Origin: a virus
IMG/VR virus record: IMGVR_UViG_3300025896_000049
Location: 1 to 43,074 of that record
Length of the DNA: 43,074 nucleotides
Direction: 5' to 3' (one strand)
Below, piece by piece: positions 8,252-37,234 of this stretch. Every line of letters starts with the position of its first letter. Position 1 is the stretch's first letter. The translations under genes and the position numbers were made by a program. The notes below the pieces were generated by a model. The model had not been told where the DNA came from. It saw only the letters and a list, made by a program, of their open reading frames with translations, and did not search any database.

Positions 8252-8482
8252 TTAATCATGGGATGGAGGTTCGGGCAATTTGCACCAATGTGTGCGATCT
8301 TTATCTATCCATGCTTCCCATCCGAGACCTACGCTTGATACGCTCCACTCATCATCGCGCCATGAGCCTGCAACAATGAGGTCTGTTCTCTCTGGCATCT
8401 TAGTGCGCCTATGCACCCACTCCGAACCAGCAGCGGCAGGGCGATCCCTTGCCGACTCGTTCGTATTAGTTTCGTCTTTCAT
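8252..8482 (-). CDS. DUF551-like small phage protein
   Basis: 76-aa protein. The second half has the pattern of DUF551-type phage proteins: a WVHRRTKMPERTDLIVAGSW segment that resembles the usual W-x-P-x-x-x-x-LPE opening, a WEAWID core and a THWCKLPEPP ending that matches the family's typical THWxPLPEPP. The family's role is unknown. The gene is convergent with terminase. Its ATG lies 6 nt after a predicted -10 box (8489-8494), so its mRNA may be leaderless. The overlapping plus-strand frame at 8280-8588 has no recognisable features and I take it as a shadow. Confidence 0.7.
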   Translation of the reverse strand: MKDETNTNESARDRPAAAGSEWVHRRTKMPERTDLIVAGSWRDDEWSVSSVGLGWEAWIDKDRTHWCKLPEPPSHD

Positions 8483-8488
8483 GCCGCG

Positions 8489-8516
8489 ACACTACATCAC
8501 CGCATGGCGGAGTCAA
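8489..8516 (-). promoter_or_regulatory. Candidate leaderless promoter for the DUF551-like gene
   Basis: Read on the minus strand: TTGACT (8516-8511), 16-nt spacer, TAGTGT (8494-8489), then 6 nt (CGCGGC) to the ATG at 8482. The geometry is the same as at 14028-14055, 25787-25814 and 29420-29447. Confidence 0.55.
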
Positions 8517-8561
8517 TACTATTCTTGCTTTCCGACGTTTGTTCCCGTATTGGGAACTAAA

Positions 8562-9998
8562 TCAAACTATGCCCTTGAGCATATCTGAGAGCGGGTTTTT
8601 CTTCCGCTTGTTGGCGATATTACCGACGATGGCTTGGTTGTTGGGGCCGGTTGGCTTTTGGAGGACGGAAGGCGTGGGTAGTGCTGGTTCTCCTAGAGGT
8701 GCGATTCCCCGGGTGCGTGGGTTTTGTGAGACTTTTACGGGGTCTAGAGGGTTGGATGGAGCGGTTAGCGGGCTTTTGGGGGCGCGGGTGTCCGTTGTGA
8801 AGCCGAATGGCGAAGGAGAAGGCTCTGAGGGGGCAGGGGCTTTCCCGTTAGGATAGAGGGCCTTGCGCTGTTCCTCGCGCTTGGCATTCTCGGCATATCC
8901 CGGTTGCAAGCTAGGGGCAACGCCAGGGACGGTTGGGACAACGGGGGGGAGCAGTCGGCTTTCTGCACCTGCGATTTCCTCGGTGGTGGTTGGAGCGAAG
9001 TCTTTGAAGCCTGCGATAGCTTGACGCTTGCGGTCCAGCAGGGTTGGGGGAGGTCCAGCGAGAGGGTTTGCTGTATCCGTATCGGTGTTTGCTGTTTGCG
9101 GCTTTGCAAGAACTGGAGGGGTGGTTTCTGGTGGGGTAGTCGCCCCAGAAGCAGTTGCCGCTTTAGTAACTGCCGCCCCAGCGTCCATCGCCTGAGCACC
9201 CGCCATTACCGTTGCTTTCGGCTTATTCTTACTGGCATCAACTCTTTTATTGAGCCAGTTACGTTGCCCGTCACTGATAACTGAAGTCCCGTCTGCTCTG
9301 CGGGCAATCATGTCTGGCCCCACCACCCACCCGTTCTTTTCGGCGGTTGTGCTGTTTGGCTTTGCAAGAACCGGAGGCGTAGCGGGTGCTGGCGCATCGG
9401 GAGCCTTGGCGGGTGCCGTGCCGTTCACGCTTGCCGTAGGAGCGGGAGCCGATGCCGTGGAAGGAGATTCGGGTGGACGGGCGATTGTCGCGGGGATTTT
9501 AGGCTTAGGTGCCTGCCAAGGGGGAGTATCGAGGAAGTCGGGAGCCGCCGTAGTCGCTGGCGTTTTCGCCGCCTTGTCCGCAGCAGCCTTATCGGCATCG
9601 GCTTTATCGGCGGCATCTTTGAGTGCCTTGTCGTAGTCCGCTTGGTCCACTTTAGACATTTTATTCGCGTCTCCGGTAAACTTCACGTTCCTTTCGGCCT
9701 GCTTGAGGCCGCCTGACGCGGCATACCGCTCAGGACCGTTCGCCTTCAACCAGTCAATCCCGCTGGTAGGTGAGAGGCTACCGGAGCGCAATCCGCCACC
9801 GGGACCGGAGCCGCTTCCCTCCGCATTCTGCCGTGCCCGCAGACGCCCGTAGATTTCATTTTGGGTGAGCCGGTTAAATTCCCCGCCGCTAGCCGTCCAT
9901 TGCGATGCTCTTTTGCCCTTGCCGGGGCGCATGAGAACGCCTTTCATCGCTTCGCTGGCTTGCTGTTCGAGGGATTGGGTAGGGGAAAGTAGGGACAT
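8562..9998 (-). CDS. Pro/Ala/Thr-rich low-complexity phage protein, possibly virion-associated
   Basis: 478 aa. Residues 1-110 are Gly/Ser/Lys-rich; the rest is dominated by Ala, Pro, Thr and Lys with short repeated segments such as PPVLAKP, which recurs about three times. There is no signal peptide, membrane segment or known enzyme motif. Such composition suggests an extended linker or disordered virion protein, but the function is not recognised. The C-terminus is basic (NKRKKNPLSDMLKGIV). It starts with an A/C-rich leader (CACTCCTAACCT) and has its own candidate promoter at 10025-10052. The gene occupies the minus strand between terminase and HNH 1. Confidence 0.75.
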   Translation of the reverse strand: MSLLSPTQSLEQQASEAMKGVLMRPGKGKRASQWTASGGEFNRLTQNEIYGRLRARQNAEGSGSGPGGGLRSGSLSPTSGIDWLKANGPERYAASGGLKQAERNVKFTGDANKMSKVDQADYDKALKDAADKADADKAAADKAAKTPATTAAPDFLDTPPWQAPKPKIPATIARPPESPSTASAPAPTASVNGTAPAKAPDAPAPATPPVLAKPNSTTAEKNGWVVGPDMIARRADGTSVISDGQRNWLNKRVDASKNKPKATVMAGAQAMDAGAAVTKAATASGATTPPETTPPVLAKPQTANTDTDTANPLAGPPPTLLDRKRQAIAGFKDFAPTTTEEIAGAESRLLPPVVPTVPGVAPSLQPGYAENAKREEQRKALYPNGKAPAPSEPSPSPFGFTTDTRAPKSPLTAPSNPLDPVKVSQNPRTRGIAPLGEPALPTPSVLQKPTGPNNQAIVGNIANKRKKNPLSDMLKGIV

Positions 9999-25000: not shown

Positions 25001-25028
25001 AGTATATCCGGTGAATTTACAATGTCAA
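25001..25028 (-). promoter_or_regulatory. Strong promoter of the scaffold-capsid unit
   Basis: Minus strand: consensus TTGACA (25028-25023), 16-nt spacer, TATACT (25006-25001), then a 48-nt leader to the scaffold ATG at 24952. It overlaps the final codons of HNH 3. Confidence 0.7.
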
Positions 25029-25666
25029 CAGGGAATGTGAGACTGGGAATCAGTATCAGTATCATCTCTGAGAGATCTCCATGTTTTCCCAATAGCGATA
25101 TGGCTTATCGTCTGCCTAGAAGTGCCGTATTTTCTGGCAATGTCGATTCTTTTCATGGATTTATCCGCTAGAAGTTTGATTATCTCTAGAACTTGAACCG
25201 ATTTAAGACCCCTGCCGTAATGCTCAATAGGCTTTCTTCTTGTCCATCTTTTCCGAGCACGGACCTTTTCTGGGAATTTTCGAGACCAGTGATTATCCCC
25301 CCTTTGAACGGTTTCTGGGTGCATCCTTGACCCCGTCCTATCTCCACTGGCTTGCCTCCCCTTTGCCTGCCTATCTGCCATATTGTCTTGGTGCGTTCCG
25401 AGCCATAAATGCTCTGGATTGACGCAGGATGGATTGTCGCATTTGTGGCAAACACAGAATCCACACGGGTCTACTCCGGTTGCTAAGAAATAAGCAATCC
25501 TGGACCCTCTTCTCATTCTACCACCAACCCAAAATACAGCATAGCCTGCAAATTTTCTGGCAATCCATTCATGACACCCGGTGTCTGGATTGATTTTGAT
25601 TCTCCCATAGAAATTCTGTTTGTTTCTTTCCGTAAGGGGTGGTATCGGTCTAGTAGCTTGAGCCAT
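25025..25666 (-). CDS. HNH homing endonuclease 3
   Basis: 213 aa. Starts MAQATRPIPPLTERNKQNFY like HNH 2; HNH core GCHEWIARKFAGYAVFWV, GSRIAYFLA and VCHKCDNPSCVNPEHLWLGT. A Lys/Arg-rich linker and a C-terminal HTH follow (KSMKRIDIARKYGTSRQTIS). It lies between the divergent portal-side operon and the scaffold gene, and the scaffold promoter overlaps its end. As a mobile gene it may have split the ancestral portal-scaffold-capsid order. A 5' hairpin (25690-25721) sits 23 nt before its ATG. Confidence 0.93.
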   Translation of the reverse strand: MAQATRPIPPLTERNKQNFYGRIKINPDTGCHEWIARKFAGYAVFWVGGRMRRGSRIAYFLATGVDPCGFCVCHKCDNPSCVNPEHLWLGTHQDNMADRQAKGRQASGDRTGSRMHPETVQRGDNHWSRKFPEKVRARKRWTRRKPIEHYGRGLKSVQVLEIIKLLADKSMKRIDIARKYGTSRQTISHIAIGKTWRSLRDDTDTDSQSHIPC

Positions 25667-29970: not shown

Positions 29971-30161
29971 ACCCAACCCTAACATCTTCTCTAGTTGGAT
30001 TCTGTATTGGAGTGGCTTGCGGTATTATAGTTCCACAGCAACCGCAATCAATCATCCTAGCTATCGCTCTGTTTACTTTATGGTATTTGACATTTTTTAA
30101 CAACCTACACGCAGTTCAAGAGACTAAAAATGAACCTCAAAAAACCGCAGAAGCCCCATGA
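29967..30161 (+). CDS. Small membrane protein
   Basis: 64 aa. Two hydrophobic stretches (LVGFCIGVACGIIVP and IILAIALFTLWYLTFF) and a polar Glu/Lys/Pro tail. Its start overlaps the upstream stop as ATGA and its stop overlaps the FkbM start as ATGA, so it is translationally linked to the sugar cassette. It might anchor the cassette enzymes or act separately; unknown. Confidence 0.65.
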   Translation: MNPTLTSSLVGFCIGVACGIIVPQQPQSIILAIALFTLWYLTFFNNLHAVQETKNEPQKTAEAP

Positions 30162-30835
30162 ACCTGAAACTAATCGACGGCACAACGCACCAACTCCCGC
30201 TTGATTCTCACGAACTTCAAGTCCACTTCGCAGTCCCCAATAACTGCACGCGGGAAATCCTCCACCAGTTCAACAATCTGGACTACTACCATAAGTTCAT
30301 TTCAGAGAGCGACAAGGTAGTGCTCGACTTCGGTTCCAACATTGGCCTGTTCGCCATTCACGTCTCACCGTGGGCGGACTTAGTTGTTGGCTATGAACCG
30401 ACGCCAGCGCACTACGCTCTGAACCTGCAACTCACCCGCGAGTTCCCGAACATCAAGGTCATCAACGCCGCAGTAGGGCCGCACACGGGAACGATTGACT
30501 TCTTCATGGAGCCGCAGAACACGACTATGAACTCAATGGTGCCTAGAAGCGGAGAAAAAACCACCGTGCCGTCATTCTCAATCCCTGACATTCTGGAGGG
30601 ATACGAATCCGTGGACTTCATCAAGATGGACATCGAAGGCTCGGAAGTTTGGGCACTCACCGAGGAAGCCATTGCTGCCATTGCCAAGAAAGTGAAGAAG
30701 CTACTGATCGAGTTCCACCACACGCAATTTGCCACGGAAATGCAGCACCGGGAGCAGTTCAAACGCAAGTTTGAAGCCGCTGGGATGAAGTGCGAGGAAT
30801 TTAACCATGATGGGCTTTTCGTATGCCAATCCTAA
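30158..30835 (+). CDS. FkbM-family SAM-dependent methyltransferase
   Basis: 225 aa. SAM-binding motif I VVLDFGSNIGLFA (54-66), acidic residue in GYEPTP (78-83) and the FkbM hallmark DFIKMDIEGSE (153-163). FkbM enzymes usually O-methylate sugars or polyketides; in surface-glycan clusters they methylate sugar residues. ATGA-linked to the upstream gene and overlapping the next. First enzyme of the cassette. No membrane segment, so probably cytoplasmic. Confidence 0.9.
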   Translation: MNLKLIDGTTHQLPLDSHELQVHFAVPNNCTREILHQFNNLDYYHKFISESDKVVLDFGSNIGLFAIHVSPWADLVVGYEPTPAHYALNLQLTREFPNIKVINAAVGPHTGTIDFFMEPQNTTMNSMVPRSGEKTTVPSFSIPDILEGYESVDFIKMDIEGSEVWALTEEAIAAIAKKVKKLLIEFHHTQFATEMQHREQFKRKFEAAGMKCEEFNHDGLFVCQS

Positions 30836-31135
30836 CTGCCATGACAACCAAATCCGATTTGTTGCCCGTAACGACTTGTTCGTCATCATTGTGTCCTACC
30901 TGCGGGCAACTTTTGCCAAAGGAAAAGAAATACAAGCGCATCAAAAAGGGAACAATAGTGAAACATCTTCGCCGAGGGTGGATCGGGAAAGTTTTCTCAT
31001 ACGCACAATGTGAAGCGGGAACGTGCGGGGTAGATTTTGGAGAAAACGGGAAATGGTGTGAGTCATTCAAATTACTGGAAATTATTGAGAAAAATATTAG
31101 GAATACCCGCGCAAACCAGATTCCATGCCAATCCT
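30823..31135 (+). repeat. Direct repeat ATGCCAATCCT flanking the small CxxC gene
   Basis: ATGCCAATCCT occurs at 30823-30833 and at 31125-31135, both as the start codon of an MPILT N-terminus and at the end of the preceding gene. This suggests the intervening gene arrived by duplication or recombination at the glycosyltransferase start. Confidence 0.6.
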
Positions 31136-31137
31136 GA
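30823..31137 (+). CDS. Small CxxC protein inserted in the sugar cassette
   Basis: 104 aa starting MPILT, as the following glycosyltransferase does. It carries LCPTCGQLLPK (CxxC) and two more Cys later (CEAGTCGVDF), so it may bind zinc, and is strongly basic around KEKKYKRIKKGTIV. Its start overlaps the FkbM end by 13 nt, and its own end overlaps the glycosyltransferase start by 13 nt at a direct repeat, suggesting an insertion. Function unknown. Confidence 0.6.
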   Translation: MPILTAMTTKSDLLPVTTCSSSLCPTCGQLLPKEKKYKRIKKGTIVKHLRRGWIGKVFSYAQCEAGTCGVDFGENGKWCESFKLLEIIEKNIRNTRANQIPCQS

Positions 31138-31745
31138 CCACCTCCTACTTCGAGAACTACCAGCCGCTTGCCGACTTGGTGCTCCCGAATCTCCAAGCCT
31201 ACTGTGACCGCCACGGCTACGGCTTGCGCACGCAGATTTCAGACGACACCCGTTGCTACGGGTTCCAGAAGATCGAGCAAATGCGCGATGCCCTGCCTGA
31301 CACTGACATGGTGCTCTGCTGCGATATTGACGTTCTGATTACCAACTTCAACTACAAGATCGAGGACTTTACCGATCCTGACCACGATGCCTATTTTGTC
31401 ATCGACCGCTACGGTCTCAACTCTGGCGTCTCCATCTGGTGCAACCGGCCAACGGCTTACGAATACATCGACGCCGTAATGGCCACGGAGAAGCTGGGGT
31501 GCCCGCACGAACAAGCCGCCATCACTGGCCTAGTCCGCGAATGGAAACGCTCCAAGTTCCTTCCCCATCCCAGCATCAATTCCTACCTCTACCGGGAATA
31601 CGGCGAGAACCGCCCGCAGTCTGAGGGTCAATGGTTTAAAGGGGATTTCCTGCTGCACCTTCCAGGAATGCCGCTGAAAAGGCGTCTTGAGATTGTGACT
31701 CGGAAACTTGCGCATGACATTATCACGGAGGATCAACTGAAATGA
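31125..31745 (+). CDS. Glycosyltransferase (GT34/galactosyl transferase-like)
   Basis: 206 aa. A GT-A type fold is suggested by MVLCCDIDVLIT with the DxD motif (D67-x-D69) that binds metal and nucleotide sugar, NSGVSIWCN (acceptor/donor loop) and LLHLPGMP near the end, as in GMA12/MNN10-type transferases. Complete for a short member. There is no membrane anchor, so it acts in the cytoplasm or on phage or host glycans being made there. ATGA-linked to the epimerase gene. Confidence 0.85.
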   Translation: MPILTTSYFENYQPLADLVLPNLQAYCDRHGYGLRTQISDDTRCYGFQKIEQMRDALPDTDMVLCCDIDVLITNFNYKIEDFTDPDHDAYFVIDRYGLNSGVSIWCNRPTAYEYIDAVMATEKLGCPHEQAAITGLVREWKRSKFLPHPSINSYLYREYGENRPQSEGQWFKGDFLLHLPGMPLKRRLEIVTRKLAHDIITEDQLK

Positions 31746-32590
31746 ACAAGGAGCACTACATCAAAAACATCCTCACCCGCTGCGCCACCGTCCTTTCCAA
31801 GATGAAGGGCAAGCGGGTATTCGTCGCTGGTGGCACGGGCTTCTACGGATCGTGGCTTGTTGCTGTCTTTGAGGCGGCGGGCATCGAAGTCCAGTGGGGA
31901 GCGCGAAGCAACGGGTGGGATATTCTTGACCCGTCCACTTACACTGAGTTCCAGAGGAATGCTGATTTTGTTATCAACGCGGCGGGGAAGTCGGACTTGG
32001 CGTGGGGCCAGTGCGCGGTAATGTCGTTTGGGCCAATGCGCCTATTTGACGCTATGGAATATGGCTTTGGGACAATGCTACAAATTAGCAGCGGTGCGGC
32101 ATCTAATGGAAAAACCCTCTACGCCGCCGCTAAGAGAGTTGCTGAAATCGCCCTGACCGGAAGGGCCAAAATCATCCGCCCTTTCGCCACCGTAGGGCCG
32201 GGAATGGGCCTAGACCGCTCGTTCGCTATCTCCACGTTCATCCGACAAGCTAGGGAAGGAAAGCCGCTCACCGTCGCCCCCTGCATTGTCCGCTCGTTCT
32301 GCCACATCGAGGACATGATCGTGCAAATACTCCACGTCCTAGTCGCTGGTGACTTCCAACCATACGATGTAGGTTCAGACGACGCGATTACGATGGATGA
32401 AGCGGCACGGGTCATTTCGCCTAATGTCGTCGTCTCGGATCAAGACTTCCCAAGCAATGCCGGTATCAGCCACTACGTTCCTAACCTGACGCGGTTGCTA
32501 GGGTTGTTCAAATCGCAATACGATATGTTTTCTATCTCCAGCCGCGAAGCCATCAAGGACACCGTCAAATATTACAAGGAGAACCCATGA
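31742..32590 (+). CDS. NAD-dependent sugar epimerase/dehydratase (extended SDR)
   Basis: 282 aa. The Rossmann motif GGTGFYG (30-36) and catalytic Y127-x-x-x-K131 (YAAAK) with S117 mark an extended SDR of the sugar-nucleotide type (as in GDP- or dTDP-sugar epimerases/dehydratases). A second-half substrate domain follows (FCHIEDMIVQIL). The substrate cannot be read from sequence. It starts ATGA after the glycosyltransferase and leads ATGA into the transketolase gene, suggesting it feeds the same pathway. Confidence 0.88.
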   Translation: MNKEHYIKNILTRCATVLSKMKGKRVFVAGGTGFYGSWLVAVFEAAGIEVQWGARSNGWDILDPSTYTEFQRNADFVINAAGKSDLAWGQCAVMSFGPMRLFDAMEYGFGTMLQISSGAASNGKTLYAAAKRVAEIALTGRAKIIRPFATVGPGMGLDRSFAISTFIRQAREGKPLTVAPCIVRSFCHIEDMIVQILHVLVAGDFQPYDVGSDDAITMDEAARVISPNVVVSDQDFPSNAGISHYVPNLTRLLGLFKSQYDMFSISSREAIKDTVKYYKENP

Positions 32591-33201
32591 AGCAACTACA
32601 AAAGCGAATCCTCGAACTCGCCTACAAAAACAAGCTCTCCCACATCGGTAGTGCGCTTTCGTGCCTGCCGATTCTGGATGAGATTTACCGGATTCGGAAG
32701 CCTGCCGATCCTGTGATTCTCTCATGCGGACATTCTGGCCTCGCGCTCTACTGCGCGCTTGAAAAGTATTGCGGCCAAGACGCGCAGGAACTAATCGACT
32801 TCTGCGGGGTCCACCCGAAGCGTTCGGCAGAGAAAGGCTTGTGGCTGTCAACGGGGAGCCTCGGCCAAGGCATCACCGTCGCCGTAGGCATGGCGCTGGC
32901 AAGTCCTGAAAAGACCGTTTACTGCGTCATCAGCGACGGGGAATGCGCGGAAGGCTCGGTTTACGAGGCTTTGCTGTTCATTTCGCGCAACAAAGTCCCG
33001 AATCTCAAGGTTTACCTGAACTACAATGGCTTTTCAGCCCTTGGAAGCGTCCATTTTATCCCTGGAGTCATCTCGCAAAGGGTGGACATACGCCATTTCT
33101 ACATCGACCTTGAGAAAATCCCATTCCTAACCGGCCTAGACGCCCACTACTACACCATGACCGACGCCGACTGGGATTGGGTCCAACAAAACATGCCATG
33201 A
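32587..33201 (+). CDS. Transketolase N-terminal (ThDP pyrophosphate) subunit
   Basis: 204 aa. Recognisable transketolase motifs: LSHIGSALS (17-25), ILSCGHSGLALY (44-55), STGSLGQGITVAVGMALA (88-105), the ThDP/Mg motif SDGECAEGS (116-124) and NYNGF (145-149). This is the pyrophosphate-binding half of a split transketolase but shorter than typical split A subunits (about 270 aa). It transfers two-carbon ketol units. The matching pyrimidine half is at 33497-33973, with one unknown gene between. Confidence 0.9.
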   Translation: MKQLQKRILELAYKNKLSHIGSALSCLPILDEIYRIRKPADPVILSCGHSGLALYCALEKYCGQDAQELIDFCGVHPKRSAEKGLWLSTGSLGQGITVAVGMALASPEKTVYCVISDGECAEGSVYEALLFISRNKVPNLKVYLNYNGFSALGSVHFIPGVISQRVDIRHFYIDLEKIPFLTGLDAHYYTMTDADWDWVQQNMP

Positions 33202-33500
33202 ACATTACTCCACAAGCACTCGAATCCCTATTCCCAAAGCACGCCGCCGGAATGGCGCTCACTCACAACGATCATAAGTTGGCCTACCAGACCGCGCATG
33301 AAAGCATTTGTGAAAATGAAGGGCGCGAGTGCCCTCCTGATTGGGAGAACCCAGAAATGAGGCAGAAAGCTATCGACACTGACGAAATCTGGGAACTTCA
33401 CTGGTATCCAGATACTCCAGTAGGATTCTTCCGAATCTGCGCACCTACGCTTGGCGATTTACTACGCTATGCGGCCACAATCAGCGAACCAACCCAATGA
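33198..33500 (+). CDS. Unknown protein between the two transketolase halves
   Basis: 100 aa from MNITPQALESLFPKHAAGMA (ATG overlapping the upstream TGA as ATGA). Acidic, with two Cys (ICENEGRECPPDW) and a WELHWYPDTPVGFF core; no known domain. It is linked by ATGA overlaps to both transketolase genes, so it may be a third subunit or an assembly factor, or simply a recent insertion. Confidence 0.6.
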   Translation: MNITPQALESLFPKHAAGMALTHNDHKLAYQTAHESICENEGRECPPDWENPEMRQKAIDTDEIWELHWYPDTPVGFFRICAPTLGDLLRYAATISEPTQ

Positions 33501-33973
33501 GACGAGACTTCCACCCCCTGCTACTAGCCCAAATGCGGAATAATTCGCAAATCCGCCTAATCACCGCTGATCTAGGATACAAAATGTGGGACAACATCGC
33601 CTCCGAGTTCCCTGACCGCTTCATCAACTGCGGGGCATCAGAGCAACTCATGCTCGGAATCGGAGTCGGCATGGCCCTAGAGGGACTCATCCCCGTCTGT
33701 TACAGCATTACCCCATTCCTGCTCAAGCGTCCTTACGAGTGGATCGACAACTACCTGGATCACGAACAAATCCCCGTGAAACTGCTCGGCGGTGGACGCG
33801 GAACCGACTACGCGCACGACGGCTACTCCCACGACGCCTCGAAAGACCTGAAAATCCTAGACACCTGCCCGAACATTGCTAGGTTCATCCCCGAATCCGT
33901 CGCGCAACTGCCGGAAATGGTCCACGCTTGGCTTCACCACACAGGACCAGCATACTTGAACCTGAAACGATGA
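33497..33973 (+). CDS. Transketolase pyrimidine-binding subunit, no C-terminal domain
   Basis: 158 aa. It matches the transketolase pyrimidine domain end to end: ITADLGYKMW (22-31), FPDRFINCGASEQLMLGIGV (39-58) with the catalytic Glu E49, LLGGGRGTDYAHDGYSHDAS (96-115) and GPAYLNLKR closing the domain. It stops there: the third domain (Transketolase_C) found in almost all family members is absent. With the 204-aa subunit it makes a minimal two-domain enzyme. ATGA-linked to both neighbours. Confidence 0.9.
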   Translation: MRRDFHPLLLAQMRNNSQIRLITADLGYKMWDNIASEFPDRFINCGASEQLMLGIGVGMALEGLIPVCYSITPFLLKRPYEWIDNYLDHEQIPVKLLGGGRGTDYAHDGYSHDASKDLKILDTCPNIARFIPESVAQLPEMVHAWLHHTGPAYLNLKR

Positions 33974-35733: not shown

Positions 35734-36045
35734 TTATTCCTGTTCGTTGAAATAGTTGTCCGGTATCCGCTCCCAAAGCTCAGGGTGCTCTTGCAGAAGG
35801 GTATTCTCGCATTGCTCCACGAATACAATCTGCTGGTCCCGTGTCGCGTCCACGATCATCTTCAAGCACTTCCGGCAGATGACGTAAAGGCAGATGAACG
35901 GGGCATTCATCCCTCCTTCGGGAACGGATTTCCTGTCATACCAAAGGCACTTCACCCCACCAGCGCGGTGCTTGCCGCACATCGGGCAGTCAAATTCCGC
36001 GATGCTTCCGTTTACCGGCTGGCTATTCAGTTCTTCCTGTGTCAT
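35734..36045 (-). CDS. Small zinc-binding-like protein
   Basis: 103 aa. CPMCGKHRAGGVKC and VICRKCLK provide paired Cys for zinc. It overlaps the end of the GT9 gene by 23 nt, so it is in that transcript. It may be a small zinc-finger adaptor; not recognised. Confidence 0.55.
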   Translation of the reverse strand: MTQEELNSQPVNGSIAEFDCPMCGKHRAGGVKCLWYDRKSVPEGGMNAPFICLYVICRKCLKMIVDATRDQQIVFVEQCENTLLQEHPELWERIPDNYFNEQE

Positions 36046-37234
36046 TGGCTTGGGTTTCTGGTTCGGGCTTGGTTTCTGGTTCGGTTTCAGGCTCGCCCTG
36101 CGCCTCCGCAGGCGGAATCATCGGAGGGTTGTCCTTCGAGAAGCCCAGCTTCACAGGCTTGGACGCCCGAAGTTTCTCCGGCAGCATCTCAACAAGCCGA
36201 GCAACCACCCGCTCAACGGAAATAGTCGCAAGCACATCGCACTTGCCAGACTGGTTGCATGGACCGTGAGGTGGCCAAGGCCCAATTCCCGCTCCGTGCC
36301 ACGCACAAGGCGCACATGGACCGTGCCCGTTCAAAACCTGCACAGATGGCGCGTAGGCCGTCCGCAGTTTCCACGGGTAGGAACCGTAAAGCCCCAGCGT
36401 CGGAATGTTCAATGCCCCCGCAACGTGCAAGAGAGAGGAATCCGGTGCCAGCACCACGTCGCAAGTGGACATAATCGCACATGACCCCCGGAAAGTAGGC
36501 GCAGGCTCAAAGGCGTAAACGCACGTCACCTCGGGCATGTCACACTCAATCTCATCAGGCTTCCCAAACAGAAAGACCTCATACCCCTTCTGGACAAGCA
36601 TTCCCATCACATGCGACAACTGATCCGCCGGATACGACCTAGCAGGGGCTGATGCCCTCGCCTGGACCCCAATCCGCGCCCGATCCGTCCTCGGGAAGCA
36701 CGCATTCGCCGCCCCAAACTCCTCAGCACTCATCATGTAGTCCATCCGCCGGTCCTGATCGACCAATGCCTTCACGTCCCCAAAGATGCACCGCGCAATC
36801 TGGTCCACCGCATGAGTAGTCAGCCCGTCCTCGTTGTTCTCAATCGAGTTCTCCAGCCAAATCAACCGCTTCCCATCGACAACAGCAACAGGAAACGGGT
36901 AGGCAATCAACTCGTCAATGTAAGGCAGGTTCTCCAAGGCGGAATTATACGGCTGCAACTGGAGACTCGCCTGCGTAATCCTGCAATCCGGCTCCCGTCG
37001 CTTCATTTCTCGGAACGAAGGAGTCAAAAAGAGCATATCTCCGTAGCCTCCTGCACGCATTACCAGAATATCCTTCGATTCAGGGTCGCCCAACGTGGCA
37101 GGGTCAACCCACTCCGCCCTAGTAAATGGGCTTTGGTTCATCACCATCCCGGCATTCTCGTCAGTCAGGTAATACGGAACTCGGGCAATCATCCCAAGCG
37201 CAGGAAAGTCGGTTTCAGTCGTTACTTTGTGCAT
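36023..37234 (-). CDS. GT9-family glycosyltransferase (heptosyltransferase-like)
   Basis: 403 aa. The GT-B/GT9 pattern is clear: ILVMRAGGYGDMLFLTP (56-72) in the N-terminal Rossmann half and DVVLAPDSSLLHVAGALNIP (259-278, with D265 and H270) in the C-terminal half, as in ADP-heptose:LPS heptosyltransferases. Residues 300-335 are Cys/Pro-rich (GPCAPCAWHG) and the last 40 are a disordered Glu/Pro/Thr tail (EPETEPETKPEPE), unusual for GT9. It could add sugar to LPS or to phage glycans together with the plus-strand cassette. Donor sugar not predictable. Confidence 0.85.
   Translation of the reverse strand: MHKVTTETDFPALGMIARVPYYLTDENAGMVMNQSPFTRAEWVDPATLGDPESKDILVMRAGGYGDMLFLTPSFREMKRREPDCRITQASLQLQPYNSALENLPYIDELIAYPFPVAVVDGKRLIWLENSIENNEDGLTTHAVDQIARCIFGDVKALVDQDRRMDYMMSAEEFGAANACFPRTDRARIGVQARASAPARSYPADQLSHVMGMLVQKGYEVFLFGKPDEIECDMPEVTCVYAFEPAPTFRGSCAIMSTCDVVLAPDSSLLHVAGALNIPTLGLYGSYPWKLRTAYAPSVQVLNGHGPCAPCAWHGAGIGPWPPHGPCNQSGKCDVLATISVERVVARLVEMLPEKLRASKPVKLGFSKDNPPMIPPAEAQGEPETEPETKPEPETQANDTGRTE

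Follow-up and report, generated by a model that had tools for sequence, protein, structure and literature searches.

The window analysed here, the whole 43,074-base IMG/VR virus record IMGVR_UViG_3300025896_000049 from an uncultured phage, encodes within a sugar cassette a minimal transketolase split into two halves, TktN and TktC, and its being catalytically competent is well supported. Among the explanations considered we lean slightly towards one in which the pair would transfer a two-carbon ketol (C2) unit to a keto-sugar nucleotide, with the resulting sugar then decorating the virion or the host envelope.

A split transketolase without a third domain

AlphaFold models were obtained for each half alone, with a pLDDT of 90.6 for TktN and 95.9 for TktC. 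TktN, the half that binds the diphosphate of thiamine diphosphate (ThDP; PP half), can be superposed in its full length of 204 residues on the PP subunit of 6yak, a solved and active split transketolase (Z 22.4, root-mean-square deviation (rmsd) 2.2), and it also aligns with residues 8-278 of Escherichia coli transketolase (TK). TktC, the PYR half, can be superposed over 156 residues on DXS (Z 23.9, rmsd 1.4) and also on 6yaj (Z 21.3), its Z scores to TK and DXS structures ranging from 19 to 24. As residues 1-158 of TktC pair with residues 357-520 of E. coli TK, its R2 falls on R358 and its last residue R158 on R520. The first-pass annotation, made from the DNA alone, had described a split transketolase that keeps the ThDP motif SDGECAEGS and the catalytic E49 but has no third (transketolase C-terminal) domain; motif and glutamate are present, each half taken singly models as the respective transketolase domain, and the Pfam match of TktC reaches residue 158 of 158, so that the protein ends with the last residue of the PYR domain.

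The missing third domain is a trait of a whole family. Scanning with the TktC alignment yielded 204 confirmed matches in IMG/VR, of which 80 were kept, and 46 matches in cellular genomes; genome contigs scanned with TktN alone, unlike those scanned with the TktC alignment, gave no matches. The tail following the PYR domain is bimodal in length, with 0-13 aa in 98 loci, 147-160 aa in 22 and nothing in between, the proportion of short to long forms being biased by search patterns that were built from short members. The short form comprises 79 viral loci (window included) and a further 19 that come from cellular assemblies, although a few of these 19 could be viral contigs; all 22 long-form loci are cellular. 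A long branch separates the two forms in the phylogenetic tree, for which the rooting was imposed. Ordinary bacterial split transketolases (the long-form loci among L109-L133) likewise have homologous, adjacent halves with 30-40% identity, but their PYR subunit has 304-381 aa including the C-terminal domain, and in the tree they do not group with the short form. Across the family loci the PYR half adjoins the PP half and usually also short-chain dehydrogenases/reductases (SDRs). In chromosomes of Patescibacteria and Omnitrophota the short form is sporadic, with strong matches in 3 of 145 genomes of the Omnitrophota (the phylum of L093) and in 2 of 145 genomes of the phylum of L100 (Patescibacteria by title), both samples including the seed genome. 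Three cellular genomes with the short form were checked; in two of them long split transketolases occur as well, and in the third no further match exceeded the threshold.

The active site is kept throughout the family. Equivalents of the PP-domain residues H26, H66, H100, D155, E160, N185 and H261 are all found in the window, the mapping to E. coli numbering being our own assignment; H19, H49, H76, D117, E122 and N147 of TktN are invariant in the 98 short-form relatives and H187 is kept in 97 of them, as are, in all 98, the catalytic glutamate E49 of TktC and its H112, which corresponds to H473. The ThDP motif opens with SDG instead of the canonical GDG, which is also the case in 95 of the 98 relatives. 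Among proteins of solved structure, the split transketolase of Carboxydothermus hydrogenoformans (6yak/6yaj, PMC7661550) is closest in sequence to both halves; like the phage enzyme it consists of a PP and a PYR subunit with the same fold and the same catalytic residues. It differs in that its PYR subunit (PYR domain 1-162) goes on into a C-terminal domain (164-312; PMC7661550), whereas TktC stops after PYR, and TktN falls short of the modelled 6yak chain by about 80 residues (204 aa compared with 265-307 aa in ordinary split transketolases). By analogy with 6yak, the halves would associate to an alpha2beta2 tetramer and bind ThDP (PMC7661550), and we consider it very likely that they form an active ThDP-dependent pair.

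The cassette is also found, in colinear form, in a sister phage (L002/L007, a 48.8-kb record) and in a third, short record (L003), both from other metagenomes. The FkbM-family methyltransferase, the glycosyltransferase (GT), the SDR, TktN and TktC keep their order and share 71-96% protein identity across the three, with 79% for FkbM and 91% for the GT between window and sister, in which a GT9 glycosyltransferase (93%) lies at the same place. Ratios of nonsynonymous to synonymous substitution rates (dN/dS) between window and sister are 0.15 for FkbM, 0.08 for the GT, 0.23 for the SDR, 0.26 for TktN and 0.05 for TktC, with 0.09 for the portal gene. The cassette is under purifying selection in both phages, and in view of this conservation and of dN/dS values of 0.05-0.26 its genes are not chance open reading frames (ORFs). 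The two further colinear records also rule out an assembly chimera, named in the first-pass annotation as an outcome that would overturn it. That the halves are degenerate, inactive remnants might be supposed from the absent third domain and the shortened TktN, yet the dN/dS values of both halves, the invariant catalytic residues in 98 relatives and the confident models speak so clearly against decay that we give this idea hardly any credence. In annotated phage records sequence relatives of both halves reach at most about 35% identity (tblastn).

Between TktN and TktC, exactly at their ATGA junction, the window contains an ORF of 100 aa, for which no match was found in Pfam or PHROG. The sister phage does not have it at the TktN/TktC junction, where the halves are directly coupled and the upstream junction is identical, and L088, a short contig from a Nitrosomonadaceae metagenome-assembled genome whose TktC is 88% identical, has a homologue at a different place. 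For these two reasons the ORF is most simply a later insertion and probably not part of the enzyme. Its absence from the sister speaks against an enzyme subunit, and the suggestion of the first-pass annotation to co-fold the halves together with it has little ground.

Relatives in probable branched-sugar operons

In a large viral clade of the family the genes on either side of the Tkt pair encode a reductase-like SDR and two dehydratases, namely a 4,6-dehydratase for NDP-glucose and a 3-dehydratase of the RfbH type, and at least two of the three genes for RfbH-like 3-dehydratase, 4,6-dehydratase-like SDR1 and reductase-like SDR2 are present in 40 of 56 dereplicated viral loci. The RfbH of L041 scores 465.6 bits against an NCBIfam equivalog cut-off of 423, aligns with the Yersinia enzyme 3bcx and keeps the catalytic histidine and the cysteine cluster; among the viral RfbH proteins listed, 78 of 80 have the PAHH motif with the catalytic histidine and 80 of 80 the cysteine-containing segment. 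SDR1 keeps STDEVYG. Two RfbH-like proteins (L038:3301-4437 and L017:3304-4443) keep the histidine without the iron-sulfur cysteine ligands and are about 70 aa shorter.

The gene logic of these relatives, as read from their sequences, is that of a yersiniose-type pathway to a C4-branched 3,6-dideoxyhexose. In the biosynthesis of yersiniose, a sugar of the Yersinia O-antigen, CDP-4-keto-3,6-dideoxyglucose receives a C2 unit from YerE (PMC12247030), and many of the viral relatives share with this pathway, in one operon, the 4,6-dehydratase, the RfbH-type 3-dehydratase, a presumed ThDP-dependent C-C ligase and an SDR. YerE is however of the decarboxylase type and uses pyruvate, whereas the viral pair is of the transketolase type (the halves of the window match best to Transketolase_N and Transket_pyr in Pfam and not to a three-domain chain of the decarboxylase/acetohydroxyacid synthase type), and the window itself has only the SDR and the ThDP pair. 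A split transketolase likewise paired with an oxidoreductase has been proposed for miharamycin and amipurimycin, where it would transfer hydroxyacetyl to a keto sugar, but these are natural product clusters of Streptomyces, and sugar-branching split transketolases have been proposed without being tested in vitro (PMC12247030).

In order to look at this connection from the other side, ThDP enzymes were counted within 6 kb of RfbH in at least 80 viral RfbH loci, using hidden Markov models built from few seeds and loci that are related to each other. A ThDP enzyme is present in 52 of the 80 loci listed, namely 14 transketolases (among them a long one in L155), 29 acetolactate-synthase-like enzymes, 8 split E1-like enzymes and one locus with both. 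Among those listed that have RfbH, SDR1 and SDR2 together the count is 34 of 37, and as the contig ends within 400 bases upstream of SDR2 in the other three (L150, L152, L158), it is 34 of 34 evaluable loci. In a control set of viral loci anchored on GDP-mannose dehydratase only 2 of the 72 without RfbH have a ThDP enzyme (Fisher p 2e-17 against the 52 of 80 listed), but it is found in only 1 of the 8 RfbH-bearing loci of that same set, for which the 6-kb flank was perhaps too short. Among the RfbH loci listed, the three enzyme types almost exclude one another. Transketolase pairs lie within 60 nt of SDR2 in 10 of 10 loci that have RfbH, SDR1 and SDR2; the other types adjoin SDR2 in some loci and lie further off in others. 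Pfam confirms the three-domain TPP-enzyme chains and the E1_dh/Transket_pyr pairs, the second half of L148 being without a match. Given the C2 unit that YerE attaches to its keto sugar, the ThDP step is best read as that of a C-C ligase. We are inclined to think, with little more than even confidence, that the viruses fill one step of branched-dideoxysugar biosynthesis with any of three ThDP enzyme types, which would change the branch and keep the rest, and that the virus-enriched, previously undescribed family of transketolases lacking the third domain represents such branching C-C ligases.

It could also be that the pair has the usual transketolase function with sugar phosphates as substrates, that is as an auxiliary metabolic gene redirecting the pentose-phosphate flux of the host during infection. 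Transketolase is reportedly named among auxiliary genes in several virome papers, and the equivalents of the phosphate-binding residues R358 and R520 are kept. We regard this as improbable all the same, since the pair sits in sugar-nucleotide/glycosyltransferase cassettes, ThDP enzymes of other reaction types are found in the same operons where it is lacking, and the two cellular genomes mentioned above already possess long split transketolases.

Two further observations concern the other ThDP enzymes. Minimal split E1-like pairs of about 205 and 178 aa without C-domain occur in viral sugar operons (L143, L148:3119-4263, L149, L170:9108-10277), and in RfbH operons a PanB-like ketopantoate hydroxymethyltransferase, perhaps making the keto-acid donor, often lies beside the acetolactate-synthase-like enzyme (L139:4261-5193, L161, L162, L154).

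Searches of the open PubMed Central subset brought up no paper that describes transketolase-bearing viral operons for branched sugars, which is weak evidence of absence. As the enzymes of the viral family are small, are encoded by two genes and come with a full pathway context, ketone-accepting transketolase chemistry is directly testable. If our reading holds true, many environmental phages encode the biosynthesis of branched sugars themselves and can exchange the branching step, which presumably varies the glycans of the virion or the host surface.

Proposed pathway and the clade of the window

For the phage of the window we infer the reaction, the assembly of the subunits, the donor, the acceptor and the target as follows. 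TktN and TktC would assemble to a minimal PP + PYR enzyme, which would move a two-carbon ketol from a ketose donor onto the carbonyl of a keto-sugar nucleotide and thus yield a branched sugar, a role that we hold to be fairly probable. The adjacent SDR would create the keto group or reduce the product, FkbM may O-methylate the sugar, and the phage glycosyltransferases would couple it to a virion protein or a surface glycan of the host. The first-pass annotation had proposed an unusual sugar made or attached by the phage, with a block of superinfection as one conceivable purpose; the sugar cassette agrees with this, and the family context sharpens it to a likely ketol transfer onto a keto sugar, giving a branched product.

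In the tree the window groups with L002 and L010 in a single clade (support 1.0), which has its own SDR type and GT34 genes; in L010 the latter flank the SDR-TktN-TktC run. Its SDR keeps GxxGxxG and YxxxK, the TDE triad of dehydratases is not present in the alignment, and a partial match to structures of UDP-glucuronate decarboxylase was obtained; a scan with this SDR matched only the sister phage records and L010.

A clue to the acceptor may come from one residue. The aspartate D469 of transketolase favours 2-hydroxy-aldehyde acceptors. It shapes the choice of acceptor in the E. coli enzyme (PMC5073344). Of the 43 members that are linked to 4,6-dehydratase or RfbH, 42 have leucine at the equivalent position and one has phenylalanine; of the 31 other members, 29 including the window (D108) have aspartate and none has leucine. 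Judged by sequence, the leucine group would fit an acceptor with a deoxygenated neighbour carbon and the aspartate group one with a hydroxylated neighbour carbon.

Several points weigh against a branching ketol transfer. The D469 correlation is confounded, as it amounts to one clade against the rest, and does not count as independent evidence. Neither a 4,6-dehydratase (positive controls L041 and L038 matched) nor RfbH (a search run without control) was found in the window, the sister and L010, records that may be incomplete, and for this reason the yersiniose-type pathway is incomplete in the phage of the window, where either the host or the SDR must supply the acceptor. The retained arginines R358 and R520 would suit ordinary sugar-phosphate substrates too, and no biochemically characterised short-form member was found. 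The aspartate D108 and the lacking dehydratase and RfbH would also agree with an unbranched unusual sugar, for which an aldehyde and not a ketone would receive the ketol, the chain being extended into a higher or a keto sugar, and the SDR would act as an epimerase. This we think unlikely, because in the sister clade the context of the relatives is that of a 4-keto sugar and the SDR itself resembles NDP-sugar enzymes.

Cassette and neighbouring genes

The cassette follows downstream of a portal-like gene (phrog_1216) and a DUF3310 gene, and its overlapping genes run in the order FkbM, 104-aa ORF, GT34-like GT, extended SDR, TktN, 100-aa ORF and TktC (Table 1). All ORFs lie where the first-pass annotation had placed them, and its sugar cassette in one ATGA-coupled run was borne out by the Pfam families and by ATGA overlaps at the junctions 31742, 32587, 33198 and 33497; the GT34 match is marginal and covers residues 6-81 only. 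The 104-aa ORF (30823) and the GT (31125) open with the near-identical DNA ATGCCAATCCTRACY and both start with MPILT, a possible footprint of duplication or recombination.

Table 1: Genes of the sugar cassette and the GT9 gene in the window.
Feature	Position	Strand	Length (aa)	Match or remark
FkbM-family methyltransferase	30158..30835	+	225	Methyltransf_21 (PF05050), 47.4 bits, cut-off 22.7
104-aa ORF, unrelated	30823-31137		104	between FkbM and GT
GT34-like glycosyltransferase, DxD (CDID)	31125..31745	+	206	Glyco_transf_34 (PF05637), 23.1 bits, cut-off 23, marginal
Extended SDR, NDP-sugar epimerase/reductase-like	31742..32590	+	282	Pfam Epimerase, 50.6 bits
TktN, PP half	32587..33201	+	204	Transketolase_N, 36.5 bits
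100-aa ORF between halves	33198..33500	+	100	ATG at 33198; no family match
TktC, PYR half	33497..33973	+	158	Transket_pyr, 70 bits
GT9-family glycosyltransferase	36023..37234	-	403	Glyco_transf_9 (PF01075), 60.7 bits, cut-off 22

The GT9 enzyme, encoded on the opposite strand in a separate transcription unit, is a possible user of the cassette sugar. Phages are known to glycosylate their DNA, and phage glycosyltransferases are often given such a role (PMC12619734), so that the cassette might instead modify DNA bases. FkbM, GT9 and the GT34-like enzyme are however glycan enzymes by family, and no gene for the synthesis of a hypermodified base was recognised in the scanned part of a phage that is mostly unannotated. 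We therefore regard modification of DNA as very improbable and virion or envelope as the likely target.

FkbM is also found near the Tkt pair in other viruses without RfbH (L005, L016, L023, L061, L064, L068, L080), and in L012 a terminase gene follows closely after the Tkt cassette. From reading their sequences, the next genes in L004 and L006 are terminase-like, again pointing to a late region, and in L005, within a region of phage structural genes, TktC and FkbM are separated by a GroES-like gene (8455-8751). The phage lineage of the window is very divergent; between 3834 and 25666 nine of ten large non-cassette ORFs compared have no PHROG match, the tenth (25025-25666, minus strand) being an HNH endonuclease.

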